The position numbers and the translations under genes were made by a program. The notes beneath the pieces are model-generated. The model ran no database searches. It saw nothing but the letters and a program-made list of their open reading frames with translations, and was not told where the DNA came from. DNA of 37,143 nt from Desulfuromonadales bacterium (lineage in GTDB: Bacteria; Desulfobacterota; Desulfuromonadia; Desulfuromonadales; JAHYIW01), in contig JARGFI010000026.1 of assembly GCA_029210745.1 (NCBI GenBank), positions 1 through 37,143 of the forward strand. Reading direction: 5' to 3'. How positions within the stretch are numbered: the first letter of the stretch is position 1; every line of letters begins with the position of its first letter. Shown here piece by piece: positions 14,925 through 30,698 of this stretch.

Positions 14925-14956
14925 TTGTCAACCATGGCTCACAGTTCAGTTGACAA
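14925..14956 (+). promoter_or_regulatory. BirA-type biotin operator ahead of bioW
   Basis: TTGTCAACC (14925-14933) and AGTTGACAA (14948-14956) are inverted half-sites separated by 14 bases. The known BirA operator pattern is TTGTnAACC-N14/15-GGTTnACAA, so only one position of the right half-site departs. It sits directly before the biotin operon and overlaps the -35 box, the expected place for repression when biotin is plentiful. Confidence 0.68.
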
Positions 14957-14984: not shown

Positions 14985-15800
14985 ATGACACCCTGCGATA
15001 AAGATCTGCTCTACAGCATCCGCATGCGTGCCGAACGCGGCGGCAGTCACCTCTCCGGCGCGGAACGGATCGGCAGTGCGCTCGATGTCGAGAGGATGGC
15101 GGCTGCGTTGGCGCGCCGGGCGATGACCCATCCGCGCGGCTGCGCCGAATCGATCCGCATTACCGTCGAGGCACTGACCGGTGAACCGCAATGTGCGCGG
15201 CTGCCCGAGCTGACCACGCTGACGGTGAGCGATTACCGGCACGGCCGCGAACTGGCGGGGCGCTGTCTGGAACGCTGCGGCGTCGCGCCCCCGGTCGTTG
15301 CGCGCGCCATCGACCTGTTAAGCGCCGGGGCGGCTCCCGGTGGCGTCAGCATGCGCGGCGCGTTGCTCCTCGACGCCACGACCGGCGAACGGCTCGACCC
15401 CGATCCGGCGCGCGGCGTGCGCGTCAGCCGCATGGATCTCACCGCGCTGGCGGCGTCCGAACTGGCCCACCAGTTACGTACCGTCGGCCTTGATAATCCC
15501 CATGTGCGCGAGGCGCTGATTCTGGCCGGCAAGGTGCTGCTCACCCCCGGTATTATCGCCGAGCTCTGCTGGTCCGACGATCCGGACTATGTGGCTGGTT
15601 ATGTCGCCGCCGCCGCGATCGGCTATGTGCGCTTCCCGCAGCTTAAACCGGCGGGAGAGGAGTGCGGCGGCCGGGTCTTTTTTGTCGACCGCGCACATTT
15701 CGAGCTTGCCGCTGCCATCGAGTTTTTGCAGCGCACCCCGGTGCTCTTCGATCGGGTCGGGCTGATTCGCTCGCCGCGCCTGTGGGAGGAATGGATATGA
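14985..15800 (+). CDS. bioW: 6-carboxyhexanoate--CoA ligase (pimeloyl-CoA synthetase)
   Basis: BioW activates free pimelate with ATP and CoA to pimeloyl-CoA, the substrate of BioF. The 271-residue protein closely follows the Bacillus BioW pattern: YSIRMRAERGGSHLSGAERI at the start, RGALLLDATTGERLDPD, GVRVSRMD, ELCWSDDPDYVAGYVA and GGRVFFV. The last three are near-identical to the family signatures. ATG 14985 follows the putative promoter by only a few bases. The stop overlaps the bioF start (ATGA). Having BioW in the same operon as BioC and BioH is unexpected because they supply the pimeloyl group by different routes. Confidence 0.94.
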   Translation: MTPCDKDLLYSIRMRAERGGSHLSGAERIGSALDVERMAAALARRAMTHPRGCAESIRITVEALTGEPQCARLPELTTLTVSDYRHGRELAGRCLERCGVAPPVVARAIDLLSAGAAPGGVSMRGALLLDATTGERLDPDPARGVRVSRMDLTALAASELAHQLRTVGLDNPHVREALILAGKVLLTPGIIAELCWSDDPDYVAGYVAAAAIGYVRFPQLKPAGEECGGRVFFVDRAHFELAAAIEFLQRTPVLFDRVGLIRSPRLWEEWI

Positions 15801-16972
15801 AGGCATGGCAGGCACATCTGGATGATCTCGCACAACGCAATATGTTGCGTTCGCTGCGCGATATCGACGGCATCCAGGGCCCCTGGGTGGAACTCAACGG
15901 GCGGCACGTCCTGCTGCTCTGTTCCAATAACTATCTCGGTCTGGCCGGACATCCGCGCCTGATCGAGGCCGCCTGTCAGGCGCTCACCGACTATGGAGTT
16001 GGCTCCGGTGCCAGCCGTCTGGTTTCCGGGTCGATGCGTGCGCACCACGCCCTGGAAGATGCGCTCGCCGCCTTCAAGGGGACTGAGGGTGCCTTGCTCT
16101 TCAATTCCGGCTACGCCGCCAATACCGGTATCCCGCAGGGGTTGTTCGGTCCCGACGACCTGATCTTTTCCGATGCCCTCAACCATGCCTCGATTATCGA
16201 CGGGTGCCGTCTGGCGCAGGCGCGCACCGTTGTTTATCCGCACAACGACAGCGTTGCACTTGAACAACTGATGATCGCCGAGTTGCCACGACGCAAGGGG
16301 CGCTGGGTGATCATTACCGACGGGGTATTCAGCATGGACGGGGATCTGGCGCGTCTGCCCGAGCTGGTGGCGCTGAAGCGACGTTATGACACGCTGCTGA
16401 TGGTCGACGATGCCCACGGCACCGGGGTCCTCGGTGCCACCGGTCGTGGTAGCGCCGAAGCCCTCGGCTGCCTTGCTGATGTCGATCTGCACATGGGCAC
16501 CCTCGGCAAAGCACTGGGTTGCGCCGGCGCCTATCTGGCCGCCGAGCGTACGGTGATCGATATGTTGATCAACCATAGCCGCCCCTTCATCTTTTCCACC
16601 AGCCTGCCGCCGGCGGTGGCCGCCGCCGCCTGCGCAGCGCTGGCGATAATCGACAGTGATGAGGGACGACGGCGGCGCAACCAGCTGAGTGCCAATCGCG
16701 ACTACTTTGCCGCACGACTGCACGCCGGTGGTGCCGATCTGCTGGGCAGTGAAACCCAGATTGTGCCGATCCTCACCGGCGAGCCCGCGCCGACCATGGC
16801 GGCGGCGGGGGCGTTGCTCGATCAGGATATCTTCCTTTCGGGGATTCGTCCGCCGACCGTTCCCGCCGGACAGTGTCGTCTGCGGGCGACGCTGATGGCC
16901 GACCATCAGCGCGTCGATCTGGAACGCGCGGCTGACGCGATTCTCAAACTTCTCGCCCCGGTGAAGAGGTGA
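15797..16972 (+). CDS. bioF: 8-amino-7-oxononanoate synthase
   Basis: BioF is a PLP enzyme that condenses a pimeloyl thioester with L-alanine to give 8-amino-7-oxononanoate. The 391-residue protein has NNYLGLAGHPRLIEAA, GVGSGASRLVSGSMRAHHALE, SDALNHASIIDGCRLA, VDDAHGTGVLG and the PLP lysine in HMGTLGKALG (K238). I start at ATG 15797 because GGGAGG is seven bases upstream; the ATG at 15791 is too close to it, and an open frame continues upstream without a better start. It overlaps bioW (ATGA) and bioH (GTGA). Confidence 0.97.
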   Translation: MKAWQAHLDDLAQRNMLRSLRDIDGIQGPWVELNGRHVLLLCSNNYLGLAGHPRLIEAACQALTDYGVGSGASRLVSGSMRAHHALEDALAAFKGTEGALLFNSGYAANTGIPQGLFGPDDLIFSDALNHASIIDGCRLAQARTVVYPHNDSVALEQLMIAELPRRKGRWVIITDGVFSMDGDLARLPELVALKRRYDTLLMVDDAHGTGVLGATGRGSAEALGCLADVDLHMGTLGKALGCAGAYLAAERTVIDMLINHSRPFIFSTSLPPAVAAAACAALAIIDSDEGRRRRNQLSANRDYFAARLHAGGADLLGSETQIVPILTGEPAPTMAAAGALLDQDIFLSGIRPPTVPAGQCRLRATLMADHQRVDLERAADAILKLLAPVKR

Positions 16973-17772
16973 AGTCGTTCATCCTCGCCGACGGTCGGCT
17001 GCTGTCTTACCGCGACCTTGGCAACGGTCCGCCGTTGATCATGCTCCACGGCTGGACGATGTCGTCGCTGGTCTTCAGTGAGGTGGCGCAGCAGCTGGCG
17101 GATGATTTTCGGGTCCTGATCCCTGATCTGCGCGGCCACGGCGCGTCAGCACCGGGAGACGGCTACGCGCTGGCCGATTTCGTCGCCGATCTGCGCCAAT
17201 GGATTGCGGGCCTCGGCCTGGAACGCTGTTCGCTCCTCGGCTGGTCCCTCGGTGGCCAGGTGGCATGTGAACTTTGCTCCCTCCCGCAGGGGCCGGTCGA
17301 ACGCCTGGTGCTGATTGCGACCACCCCCCGGTTTGCCAACGGTGACGGCTGGGAGGGGGGCTTGCCGACGGCTCAGGTAAAGGCGATGGGACGCAATATC
17401 CGTCGCGCCTACGCTAAAACGATGGAAGAGTTCTTTCATCTCCAGTTCGCCGGTGAGGCGCTGCCCCGCGAGCGGCTGCGTGCAATTGCGCAATTTGCCG
17501 TACGACCGGCAAAATTACCCGCCAGCGAAGTCGCCTTGGCGGCGCTGGAGACCCTCACCGGTGCCGATCAGCGCGCCCAGTTGGCGCAGATCAAGGTGCC
17601 GACCCTGATCGTTCACGGAAGCAGTGACCCGATCGTCCCGATCGCCGCCGGGCGTTATCTGGCGACGCAGTTGCCGCACGCCGACCTGGTCACCCTGCCC
17701 GGCATCGGCCATGCGCCGTTTCTCAGTCGCCCCGAAGAGATGCTCACCTTGTGGCGCGAGTTTCTGTCATGA
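16969..17772 (+). CDS. bioH: pimeloyl-[ACP] methyl ester esterase (BioH-type alpha/beta hydrolase)
   Basis: BioH removes the methyl group from pimeloyl-ACP methyl ester after chain elongation, releasing pimeloyl-ACP. The 267-residue protein is an alpha/beta hydrolase with the nucleophile elbow GWSLGG (S93), acid D220 in GSSDPIVP and H248 in GIGHAPF. The oxyanion motif LHGWTMSS matches BioH. Start is GTG 16969, overlapping the bioF stop (GTGA). The position between bioF and bioC is strong support for BioH over other hydrolases. Confidence 0.92.
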   Translation: MKSFILADGRLLSYRDLGNGPPLIMLHGWTMSSLVFSEVAQQLADDFRVLIPDLRGHGASAPGDGYALADFVADLRQWIAGLGLERCSLLGWSLGGQVACELCSLPQGPVERLVLIATTPRFANGDGWEGGLPTAQVKAMGRNIRRAYAKTMEEFFHLQFAGEALPRERLRAIAQFAVRPAKLPASEVALAALETLTGADQRAQLAQIKVPTLIVHGSSDPIVPIAAGRYLATQLPHADLVTLPGIGHAPFLSRPEEMLTLWREFLS

Positions 17773-18581
17773 CTCCCACTGAAGTTGTCCCGCGCCAGGT
17801 CAGCCGCCACTTTTCCGCCCACGCCGTCGAGTACGACCGCTATGCGGTGGTGCAGAAACAGGTCGTCCGCCGACTGCTGACCCTGCTGCCGAGCGACGCC
17901 GCCGACCTCGGTCCGGTGCTCGACATCGGCTGCGGCACCGGCGAACTGGCACGGCAACTTTCCACTCGTTTTCCGCGCTTGCCGCTGGCGATCGCCGATA
18001 TCGCCCACGGCATGACCTGCTGCGCCGCCACTCAGTTGGCCGGGGTGACGGCGTTCGATGCCGACGCGCAAGCGCTCCCGGTCGGCCCCACGCGCTTCGG
18101 CATGGTGGTGTCCTCATCAATGTACCAGTGGGTCAACGATCTGCCCGGCGCCTTCACCGAAAATCACCGGGTCCTGCGTCCGGGGGGGGCGTTTGTGTTT
18201 GCGCTCTTCGTCGCCGACACACTGAAAGAGCTGCGCGTCTCCTATCAGCAGGCGCTCGATGAACTCGGCAACCCCTACCCCTCACATATGCAGAAGTTTG
18301 TCGGCGTCGCCGAGGTGCGGCAGGCGCTGGCCAGCGCCGGATTTGAAGCGGTGCGGCTGGAGACGGCTTATGAGGTGGAACATCATCCGGATGTGGTGAC
18401 GCTGCTGAAGAACATTAAGCATATCGGCGCCCAGAACGCCGCCAAAGAGCGTCCGGCGGGGCTGGGGTTGCGGCGGGTCACCCAGCGGATGATAGAGCTT
18501 TATACCGCGATCTACGCAACCGGCGGTACGGTCCCGGCGACGTATCAGGTGGTGTACGGGGTGGGGCGGAAGAAGGATTAG
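17769..18581 (+). CDS. bioC: malonyl-[ACP] O-methyltransferase
   Basis: BioC methylates malonyl-ACP with S-adenosylmethionine, disguising it so that fatty-acid enzymes can build pimeloyl-ACP methyl ester. The 270-residue protein has the SAM-binding loop VLDIGCGTGELARQL (about residues 54-68), an acidic post-II segment (AIADIAHGM), and SSSMYQWVNDLPGAFTENHRVLRPGG, typical of BioC. The N-terminal QVSRHFSAHAVEYDRYA also fits. ATG 17769 overlaps the bioH stop (ATGA). It ends the operon; no strong terminator is seen. Confidence 0.93.
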   Translation: MTPTEVVPRQVSRHFSAHAVEYDRYAVVQKQVVRRLLTLLPSDAADLGPVLDIGCGTGELARQLSTRFPRLPLAIADIAHGMTCCAATQLAGVTAFDADAQALPVGPTRFGMVVSSSMYQWVNDLPGAFTENHRVLRPGGAFVFALFVADTLKELRVSYQQALDELGNPYPSHMQKFVGVAEVRQALASAGFEAVRLETAYEVEHHPDVVTLLKNIKHIGAQNAAKERPAGLGLRRVTQRMIELYTAIYATGGTVPATYQVVYGVGRKKD

Positions 18582-26011: not shown

Positions 26012-27736
26012 ATGGCGAAAAAATCGATTGCACCAACGTTGAAAAATCCCTTCGATCCGCCCGAAAAGGTGGAGTTTACGATCCCCGGTGAGGTCGCTGG
26101 CGTCAGTGGTGGCTACGAAGAAGTTATGCGTGAAGGGTATGAGCTGATTCAACGCCCGATCAAATCGGTGGCAGTCAGTTCGATCGAGAAGCAGCATTTC
26201 AAAAAGCGGATGACGGTTTGGGAGCGGATCAAGGTTCTGTCCCAGGATGAGCCGAATGTCCTTTATCAGAACTGGGGCAAAAACCTTGATGGTGCCTCGC
26301 TGATGACCGGCATTCTCAACATCAAAGGACGTGACGTTGCGGTTTATGGCCATGATTTTACGGTGCGGGCCGGATCGATTGACGCCACCAACGGGAACAA
26401 ACTGGCCCGCCTGTTTAATATGTGCGGTGAAAAAAAGATTCCGTTGATCGGCATGAACGACAGCGCCGGGGCATTTGTCCCCGCCGGGGTCGGCGGTCTT
26501 GATGGTTACGCCGAAGCATTTACTGCCCTGCGCAAGATCAGCGGCGTGGTGCCGTCAATCATGTGCATGTTCGGTTTTAATGCCGGTGGCGGGTCCTACT
26601 TGCCGCGTCAGGGCAGCTTTGTTATCCAGCCGAACGACACCTTCTTCGGGCTTACCGGACCGGGTGTCGTCAAGTCGGTCCTCGGTGAGGACGTGACTCC
26701 CGAGGAGCTTGGTGGTCCGAAGGTTCATGGCAACTCTGGAGTGGCCGACCTGACCGTGGCTGACGAAGTTGCTGCGCTGCGCACGGCGACGCGCCTGCTC
26801 AGCTACATCCCCGACAACAACAGCGTCATGGCGCCGTATCAGGAAACCAGTGACCCGCTTGATCGCAAGACCTGGGAGATCAATACGCTGCTGAAAAAAG
26901 CTTTCAACTCGCCAACCGGGTTTAATACCCCTTTTGACGTGTCGATCATTATTCAGCAGATCTGCGATCACGGAGACTATTTCGAGTTGCAACCGGAACG
27001 TGCTCGCGAGGTAGTGACCGCTTTCGGTCGCCTCGGCGGCAATGTTGTCGGTTTCTGCGCCAACAACTCGGCGGTTTCTTCGGGGCAGATCGACTGTGAT
27101 TCTGCCGTGAAAATTGCCCGTTTTATTCGTTTCTGCAATATTTACAACATCCCGGTTATCTTCATGGAAGATACCACCGGCTTCCTGCCAGGGCGCGAGC
27201 AGGAAGCGCGCGGCATCGTTCAGGCCGGCCGGTCGATGCTTGACTCGATCGTCGATTTGCGCACCCCGCGGATCCTGCTGATCCTGCGTAACGCCTACGG
27301 CGGGGCCTACGCCTCATACAACAACTACCCGACCGGGGCCGATCTGGTGCTGGCGCTGCCGACCACCCGTCTTGCGGTCATGGGCCCGGCCGGCAAGGAG
27401 TTCGTCTACAAGAATGAGCTGCGCAAGTTGCGCGGAGCGATTGCGGGGCGTATCAAGCAGGGCATGCTGGAGCGGGTTACTGCCGGGATGGATGGTGATG
27501 CAGCCAAGAAAGACGCTGAGAATGAAGCGGCTGAATGGCTTAAAGCAGAAGAAGCGATGCTCAACACCCGTTATGAAAAAGAGTTGATGAACCCGAAAGA
27601 GGGGCTGGCGCTGGGCTCGATTTCCTCTATTGTCATGCCGACCGATCTGCGCAAAGTCCTCGGTGAAAACCTGAACTTCTTCCTGCGGCACTACACGCCG
27701 GGGCCGATGCAGTCGGTTCAGCGTGAGTTCCATTAG
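26012..27736 (+). CDS. acyl-CoA carboxylase, carboxyltransferase subunit
   Basis: This subunit moves the carboxyl group from carboxybiotin to an acyl-CoA. The 574-residue protein has the two crotonase-like halves of the PccB/AccB family: N-terminal [40 protein letters not shown] and [10 protein letters not shown]-terminal [28 protein letters not shown] and [13 protein letters not shown]. It is longer than typical PccB (about 510). AAGGAA lies seven to eight bases before ATG 26012. The next gene, starting 22 bases after its stop, carries the biotin carboxylase and biotin. The acyl-CoA used cannot be read from the sequence. Confidence 0.92.
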
Positions 27737-27758
27737 GCCGCTGGAGGGAGAGGTGACG

Positions 27759-30698
27759 ATGAAAGCAAATCTAAGTTTTGACGTGGAGATAGAGCCAATG
27801 GCACAGACTACTGATTACTACCGAAACAATCCGCTGATTCATCGTGATCGCCGCTTGAGTCAATCTGCTTCCCCGTGGATCAGATCGTTCTCGTGTGAGG
27901 ATCTCAAACCGTTGATCGTTTGTCGCGGCCCGATCCGCAAGGAGGCGATGGATGTATACAGCGAAATGGGGATCACCCATTTCGGCATCCTGCTGTCTGA
28001 AAAAGACTCGATCGTTTACCCGAACGCCTTGTCGCCGGAGTTGCGGCAACTCACCGATTCGACGCGTGTGCATCGCGTTCCCGATTATTCCGGTGCCAGC
28101 AAGGAAGAGCGGATCGAGCGCATCAACCAGATTATTCAAATCGCCAAGGATAACGGCTACGATTCGGTCTTTGCCGGTTATGGTTTCATGGCCGAAGATG
28201 ACGAGTTCGTCGCCGCGATAGAGAACGCCGGTCTGAAATTTATCGGTCCGTGCGCGCACACCCAGGCGAGTGCCGGGAAGAAAGATGAAGCGAAGCGTAC
28301 CGCTCTCAAGGTTGATGTTTCGGTCACCCCGGGAATCGATAATGTTACCGCGCGGACGCTCGTGGCGAAACATCCGAGCCGCGCGGCGCTGCTGGCAGTG
28401 GTCAAGGCCGAAGAGTTGGCGGTCGACAAGAAGATTCTTGCCGACAGCGAACTCTCGCTCGAAGATCTGGCCGACAAAATTCTTTTTGCTGCCTACGAAA
28501 AGGGGATTGATCTGTTCTCGATCAACGAACTTGGCAAGCAAACGGAAAAAGAGGTTGCGGCGATGTTCAAGGCGAACCCGAACGCCCGCATCCGCCTCAA
28601 GGCGATCGGCGGTGGTGGTGGCAAGGGACAACGCATTCTCGGTGCTTCACTGCTGACCAAGAAGAATGTCAGCGATGCTGATATTGCCAAAGCCGCTGCT
28701 GATACACCGGGGCTGGTGCTGGAAATCCTTAACGAAGTCAAGGCGAACGGCGTTGGCGACAACAAGAACGTGTTGGTCGAGCTCAACATCGAGCAAACGC
28801 GTCACAACGAAATTCAACTGCTTGGCAACGGCAAGTGGTGCGTTTCCCTGGGGGGGCGCGATTGCTCGTTGCAGATGCATGAGCAGAAGCTGCTCGAAAT
28901 CTCCGTCACCCAGGAGGGGTTGGCGCTGGAGATTGAAAAAGCGAAAAAAGCCGGCAATAAAGTCGTTACCAAGGCGCTTGAAACCGATCTCAAGGTACTC
29001 AAGCGGATGGAAGATGAAGCGGCGCGATTCGGCGCGGCGGTCGGCCTCGATTCGGCGTCAACCTTTGAGTGTATCGTTGATCGTGATCGTCACTACTTCA
29101 TGGAAGTCAATACCCGGATTCAGGTTGAACACCGGGTTTCTGAGCTTTGTTACAGCCTCAAGTTCACCAATCCCAAGGATCAGAACGATTTCTTTATCGT
29201 TGAATCACTGGTCGAGGCCATGGCGCTGCTCGCCGAACACAAAGAGCGCCTGCCGAAGCCGGAGCGGATTGTCCGCTTTGCTGCCGCCGCCGAAGCGCGC
29301 CTCAACGCGACCGATAGCTCGCTGACACCGAGTGCCGGGGGGATGATCCGTTACTGGAGCAAACCGCTGGAAGGCGAAATTCGTGACGATCAGGGGATCT
29401 GTCTGCCGAACCCCGATACCGGCCTCTTCATGCGCTACAAGGTTGCCGGCGCTTACGATTCAAACATTGCCCTGCTGCTGACCAAAGGGGTTGATCGTCT
29501 CGACAGCTATCAGGCGCTGTCACGCGTTATCTGTAACACCAAGATTCGCGGTACCGATCTGGCGACCAACCTGGAATTTCACTACGGGCTGGTCAACTGG
29601 TTTATCGGGCGCAACGTCATGGCCAAGCCGACCACGCGTTTTGTCGTCCCCTATCTGACGCTGGTGGGAACACTGAAGGAGGAAGCGAGCAAGCTCGATC
29701 CGGTTTTCGCTTTCCTGGCGATGAAAAAGGCTTACGCCCAGCGGGTTGCCGAGCAGTACGCCGATGACCCCACAACCCTGGCGGAGCAGAAAGCCAATAT
29801 TTCGGAACTCCTTGACCGTAAGGGAACGCTGATCACCCGTCCGATGGAACAATTGCTGGCCGATCCGCACCTTCTTTCCGGCTGGTTGAGTCTCAATCAG
29901 AAGAACTTCCAGGTTGCTGGCGGCAAAGCGACCTGGCTGCGTAACCCGATGGTTGTGCTGGACGAAACTTACGTTTATCTGAATATGGCTTATCGTCCGC
30001 ACGAACCGGCCGCTGAAGTGATCTGGGATCACGACAAGGCATTGCTCGACAGCGCCTTGCGTTTTTATGCCGAGCTGCGGACAACGTTGAAGCTGGAAAA
30101 GGACGATTTCGCCAAACTTAACGAGTTACTGGGGAAAGACAAGCCGCAGGGTGGTTATGATCAGGCGATGTGGACGCAGGTTCAGTCTGCCCACGCCGGT
30201 TATCAAGCGGGAACCGAACTGCTCGCGATCATTTTTCTGATCGCCGACAACACCCGTTTCTGGGATCTGAAGGTGGAAGAAGATCTGGAGATCACCATTC
30301 CGGAGTATCTCGCCGACCCCGACCTGCAAGCGCGAATGAAAAAGATCCTGGTTCCGCCGCCGTCGACCAAGGCCGACGAGATTGTCACGCCGGGTGGCGG
30401 GATGTACTATGCTCAGGAAGCACCGGGGATGCCGCCGTTCGTGACCGAAGGGATGCATTTCGAGAAGGGGCAGCCGTTGTTTATCATCGAGGTCATGAAG
30501 ATGTTCAACAAGATCCCGGCGCCGTTTTCCGGCACTATCGACAGGATTCTGATCGAAGGCAAGGAAGGGGTCATCGTGTCGAAAGGGCAGCCGCTCTTCA
30601 AGGTGACTCCGGACGAGAAGTTTGTCGAGGTTGATCCGAAGGCCATTGAGCGCGAGCGGCGCGAGACGACCAGCGCCTATCTGCAAGCGGTGCTCTAA
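27759..30698 (+). CDS. fused biotin carboxylase-biotin carrier subunit of acyl-CoA carboxylase
   Basis: This 979-residue subunit charges its own biotin with bicarbonate and ATP. An N-terminal biotin carboxylase region (about 30-590) contains the glycine-rich ATP loop LKAIGGGGGKGQRIL, HNEIQLLGNGKW, GGRDCSLQMHEQKLLE and the catalytic MEVNTRIQVEHRVSEL. A helical middle region (about 600-860) is not one I recognise. The C-terminal biotinyl domain (about 880-960) has EVMKMFNK with K914 as biotin site. About 80 extra residues lie between VTPGIDN and the ATP loop compared with E. coli AccC. ATG 27759 has AGAGG five bases upstream; ATG 27798 is an alternative. Confidence 0.9.
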   Translation: MKANLSFDVEIEPMAQTTDYYRNNPLIHRDRRLSQSASPWIRSFSCEDLKPLIVCRGPIRKEAMDVYSEMGITHFGILLSEKDSIVYPNALSPELRQLTDSTRVHRVPDYSGASKEERIERINQIIQIAKDNGYDSVFAGYGFMAEDDEFVAAIENAGLKFIGPCAHTQASAGKKDEAKRTALKVDVSVTPGIDNVTARTLVAKHPSRAALLAVVKAEELAVDKKILADSELSLEDLADKILFAAYEKGIDLFSINELGKQTEKEVAAMFKANPNARIRLKAIGGGGGKGQRILGASLLTKKNVSDADIAKAAADTPGLVLEILNEVKANGVGDNKNVLVELNIEQTRHNEIQLLGNGKWCVSLGGRDCSLQMHEQKLLEISVTQEGLALEIEKAKKAGNKVVTKALETDLKVLKRMEDEAARFGAAVGLDSASTFECIVDRDRHYFMEVNTRIQVEHRVSELCYSLKFTNPKDQNDFFIVESLVEAMALLAEHKERLPKPERIVRFAAAAEARLNATDSSLTPSAGGMIRYWSKPLEGEIRDDQGICLPNPDTGLFMRYKVAGAYDSNIALLLTKGVDRLDSYQALSRVICNTKIRGTDLATNLEFHYGLVNWFIGRNVMAKPTTRFVVPYLTLVGTLKEEASKLDPVFAFLAMKKAYAQRVAEQYADDPTTLAEQKANISELLDRKGTLITRPMEQLLADPHLLSGWLSLNQKNFQVAGGKATWLRNPMVVLDETYVYLNMAYRPHEPAAEVIWDHDKALLDSALRFYAELRTTLKLEKDDFAKLNELLGKDKPQGGYDQAMWTQVQSAHAGYQAGTELLAIIFLIADNTRFWDLKVEEDLEITIPEYLADPDLQARMKKILVPPPSTKADEIVTPGGGMYYAQEAPGMPPFVTEGMHFEKGQPLFIIEVMKMFNKIPAPFSGTIDRILIEGKEGVIVSKGQPLFKVTPDEKFVEVDPKAIERERRETTSAYLQAVL

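Follow-up and report, generated by a model that had tools for sequence, protein, structure and literature searches.

A single operon in a Desulfuromonadales genome encodes both pimelate routes of biotin synthesis, with a BioW for the activation of free pimelate and a BioC/BioH pair for the de novo synthesis of the pimeloyl precursor. The genes bioW-bioF-bioH-bioC lie head to tail on the forward strand at 14985-18581 of the window (the whole stretch of DNA analysed, 37,143 nucleotides; Table 1). The pairing of BioW with BioC/BioH is a rediscovery, in another genome, of an arrangement of known kind (PMC545781); its order-wide fixation and a model for the insertion of bioW are new. In the reading we favour, which we hold at a probability of roughly 0.6, BioC and BioH would represent the original de novo route, to which BioW was added as an activator of free pimelate that has since been stably retained; both would feed BioF.

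Table 1 Features of the biotin operon in the window
Feature	Position	Strand	Description
BirA operator (predicted)	14925-14956	+	TTGTCAACC-N14-AGTTGACAA; 15/16 consensus positions; ~60 bases 5' of bioW start
bioW (pimeloyl-CoA synthetase; 6-carboxyhexanoate--CoA ligase)	14985-15800	+	271 aa; Pfam and NCBIfam cut-offs passed
bioF	15797-16972	+	391 aa; TIGR00858 above cut-off
bioH (pimeloyl-ACP methyl ester esterase)	16969-17772	+	267 aa; top NCBIfam match, under cut-off
bioC (malonyl-ACP O-methyltransferase)	17769-18581	+	270 aa; top NCBIfam match, slightly under cut-off

A sequence-only reading of this stretch had claimed that one operon carries both routes with intact-looking enzymes and that its genes overlap by ATGA and GTGA junctions. 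Both claims stand: the BioW substrate pocket, the BioH triad and the BioC S-adenosylmethionine (SAM) motif are present, and the open reading frame coordinates give four-base overlaps at all three junctions (ATGA for bioW/bioF, GTGA for bioF/bioH and ATGA for bioH/bioC). For bioC we took the ATG at 17769 as the start; the mechanically called frame begins with a GTG at 17751. Chance does not explain this gene order, which recurs without exception in the 24 related loci where all four genes are readable.

The predicted operator is the only BirA-type site in the window scoring at least 13, and sites scoring at least 14 are expected 0.03 times per shuffled window. Of 32 related bioW loci, 29 have a site scoring at least 13 in a similar position, compared with 0.1% of shuffles, and among 24 loci that lack bioW, 19 have a BirA-type site 5' of bioF, G025 being one of them. 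The genome encodes one BirA, a 333-aa open reading frame assigned as a ligase by TIGR00121, with an apparent N-terminal helix-turn-helix read from its sequence. The remaining biotin genes, bioB, bioD and bioA, form a separate cluster elsewhere in the genome, with a second BirA-type site 5' of bioB. We thus predict that the operon is regulated by BirA through the putative operator. About 7.5 kb away from the operon, the window also encodes a biotin-dependent enzyme (26012-30698): after a carboxyltransferase gene comes one for a biotin carboxylase of 991 aa whose C-terminus bears a biotinyl domain.

The first gene proved to encode a BioW, as had been proposed, and not a member of another family. 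It scores above the cut-offs of PF03744 (249.8 bits; cut-off 25), TIGR01204 (200.3; 193.6) and NF002360 (241.2; 226), and it matches the solved BioW structures 5tv5 (5e-41) and 5flg (5e-39). In B. subtilis BioW, Tyr199, Tyr211 and Arg213 bind the terminal carboxylate of pimelate (PMC9544090). Alignment to the solved chain places Y202, Y214 and R216 at these positions, and all three are invariant in an alignment of 24 sequences. With a dN/dS of 0.13 against a same-genus relative, bioW is under purifying selection. Family membership suggests that this BioW would act as a pimelate- and ATP-dependent CoA ligase. Family f18, also in this order, contains a divergent BioW-fold homologue (33% identity), seen in genomes G132 (locus L181, 4927-5703) and G161 (L182, 861-1637). 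The L181 copy, whose neighbours look like genes for a 2-oxoacid:ferredoxin oxidoreductase, shows GAMFF where BioW has GYxR; with the equivalents of Tyr211 and Arg213 missing, its substrate is probably another acid.

BioH and BioC each have their biotin equivalog family as top match by a wide margin, in keeping with the earlier naming. BioH scores 168.6 bits against TIGR01738, under the cut-off of 206.95, with the next family at 125; BioC scores 181.9 bits against TIGR02072, 3 bits under the cut-off of 184.95, with the next family at 96, a gap of 86 bits. Since both scores fall below their cut-offs, the names also rest on synteny, motifs and class-wide orthologues. The BioH triad of S93 (in GWSLGG), D220 and H248 (in GHAPF) is invariant in an alignment of 23 sequences, and E. 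coli BioH has GWSLGG and AHAPF. BioC carries the SAM-binding motif DIGCGTGEL, its top PDB match is the solved BioC 8x8i, and its gene adjoins bioH in the biotin operon, as do bioC orthologues across the whole class. The catalytic motifs of both proteins are intact and are invariant or near-invariant among relatives. Rank, motifs, synteny and orthology, rather than a cut-off, thus point to a BioH-type function for the third gene product.

The dN/dS of bioC against the same-genus relative is 0.19. That of bioH, at 0.41, clearly exceeds the range of 0.05-0.19 for bioW, bioF and bioC. BioH also has long terminal branches in two genomes, G025 (L179, 2668-3402; 1.56) and G149 (L180, 5385-6119; 2.29), against a median of 0.38; BioC in the same two genomes is ordinary, unlike the BioH there.

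To place the operon in its wider context, we surveyed a class sample of 194 genomes and an order sample of 107 genomes that are at least 85% complete. BioW occurs in 62 genomes of the class sample, every one of them in this order, and is absent from that sample's genomes of other orders. Orthologous BioC and BioH are common in those other orders, and 23 of 23 loci sampled from them have bioF-bioH-bioC without bioW. Within the order sample, 73 of the 107 genomes have an orthologous BioC, and 70 of these 73 also have BioW. Two of the three remaining genomes (G149 and G198) have contigs that end inside bioF and were left out, which gives an informative set of 71 bioC-bearing genomes; the third, G025, is a true loss, in which bioW is gone and a BirA-type operator followed by bioF-bioH-bioC is retained. 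BioW is therefore kept in all but one of the 71 informative genomes, and in many families; the 70 that keep it include G018, where bioW is a fragment at a contig edge. Another 28 genomes of the order have neither BioW nor BioC. A Fisher p value for this co-occurrence overstates independence, the genomes being related. The suggestion that BioW be searched for alongside BioC/BioH in Desulfuromonadales thus found the two together nearly throughout. The accompanying statement that organisms usually rely on one route is fair in general; the present order, however, is on record as an exception (PMC545781), and one in which the pairing is almost fixed.

Apparent departures from the pairing mostly dissolved on inspection. 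BioC without BioW is not a repeated loss, as G149, G198 and G018 are contig edges and only G025 is real. This BioW is never seen in the order without BioC, except possibly in G204, where the contig stops too soon to judge; the other two candidates, G132 and G161, carry the divergent BioW-fold homologue described above. The BioW proteins of these operons form a single clade (SH-aLRT 99), and BioW distances are correlated with BioF, BioH and BioC distances. Most simply, bioW would have been inserted a single time, between the BirA operator and bioF, and inherited vertically thereafter; a recent or genome-specific gain is ruled out by the clade-wide conservation and the single clade. Elsewhere in the phylum, one genus (family f60) combines BioW with BioF in loci that have neither bioH nor bioC next to them: in four (L241, L242, L245 and L246) the two are fused in open frames of 659-707 aa, and in two (L243 and L244) they are unfused neighbours.

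BioF scores 444 bits against TIGR00858 (cut-off 426), and its dN/dS of 0.045 was again obtained against the same-genus relative. In the phylogeny, the BioF of this order has as its sister group the BioF of the class's bioW-less orders, which rules out that BioF was gained along with BioW. Because those orders have BioC/BioH only, the ancestor of this BioF presumably used pimeloyl-ACP; for its present donor the phylogeny is suggestive only. B. subtilis BioF uses pimeloyl-CoA only and E. coli BioF prefers pimeloyl-ACP (PMC7645780). Given this contrast, the donor of the BioF studied here decides how the two routes relate, and the sequence-only reading was right to single out the choice of acyl donor as the key question. 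Its further claim, that BioF must accept both thioesters, holds if the routes run in parallel; if they run in series, CoA alone is needed.

The analysis shows the gene content and order, the conserved motifs, the operator, the distribution and the single BioW clade; with the enzyme reactions taken from family membership, we infer the following scheme for parallel entry. BioC would methylate malonyl-ACP, fatty acid synthesis would extend the product, and BioH would cleave the methyl ester, leaving pimeloyl-ACP; this would be the class's ancestral route for de novo synthesis. A single gain, dating to the origin of the order or close to it, would have put bioW between operator and bioF. BioW would turn free pimelate, either imported or freed in the cell by thioester hydrolysis, into pimeloyl-CoA; the same BioF would take both donors, and bioB, bioD and bioA would complete biotin. 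Aromatic breakdown, offered earlier as a possible pimelate source, is not supported: the genome has only sub-threshold relatives of the BamA-type ring hydrolase of the benzoyl-CoA pathway (TIGR03200), the best at 71.7 bits against a cut-off of 464.

The retention of operator and bioF-bioH-bioC in G025 implies that BioC/BioH can suffice there, and they apparently do so in the sister orders as well. This could mean that BioW is redundant, in the process of being lost and kept only as the first gene of the operon. We regard such passive carry-over as highly improbable in light of the invariant pocket residues, the dN/dS of bioW and its presence in all but one informative genome over many families. 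A salvage enzyme is expected to be lost often, yet BioW persists, which hints at a more integral role. One such role would make the routes serial, with BioC/BioH (or BioH plus a thioesterase) providing free pimelate via fatty acid synthesis for activation by BioW and use by a CoA-dependent BioF. The near-constant co-retention of bioW with bioH-bioC, and the fact that this BioW never occurs without BioC, agree with such a series, and B. subtilis offers a precedent in which free pimelate comes from fatty acid synthesis and BioF is CoA-only (PMC7645780). The unusual divergence of BioH in bioW-less G025 and in G149 points the same way, but this argument consists of two long branches only. Moreover, the operon contains no thioesterase gene, BioF is orthologous to that of the BioW-less orders, and G025 keeps operator and bioF-bioH-bioC without bioW. 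We therefore consider a serial route unlikely, and quite unlikely its strict form, in which both routes would be one linear pathway in this order and BioW would re-activate pimelate for a BioF that has lost the use of pimeloyl-ACP.

A changed role of BioW or BioH, such as recycling pimelate lost by hydrolysis or activating another acid, appears very unlikely. The faster evolution of bioH relative to its operon partners, seen between two same-genus genomes, and the family f18 homologue without the pimelate pocket would fit a change of this kind; against it, the BioW of the window retains all three terminal-carboxylate residues, the BioH triad is retained, and both genes lie downstream of a BirA-type operator. 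Parallel entry of two donors into BioF is thus the reading we prefer.

Order-wide fixation turns the relationship of the two routes into a question for a whole clade and not for one genome, with the bioW-less sister orders and G025 as natural controls. Our literature search found no test of how the two pimelate routes relate. Where the free pimelate used by BioW comes from is an acknowledged gap (PMC11089781), and a lineage that combines BioW with BioC/BioH is well suited to a search for the link.

The closest known system is that of Desulfuromonas, for which Rodionov et al. (2004, PMC545781) described bioC-bioH plus bioW; like the window, it has both routes, with a BirA site (aTGTcAACC-N14-GGTTgACAg) 5' of bioW and another before bioB. 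That work considered one Desulfuromonas genome, and its biotin section is silent on wider conservation or origin. The Geobacter-type bioF-bioH-bioC operon of the class's other orders shares with the window its gene order, the usual upstream BirA-type site and an orthologous BioF, but has no bioW. In the B. subtilis bioWAFDBI operon, too, BioF is supplied by a BioW whose pocket residues match; that operon differs in having no bioC or bioH and in a BioF that reportedly uses CoA only (PMC7645780). In the BioWF fusions of Corynebacterium amycolatum and Desulfosporosinus orientis (PMC9544090), BioW is directly coupled to BioF as in the window, where, unlike in the fusions, bioW and bioF are distinct genes that overlap, and bioH and bioC come after them.
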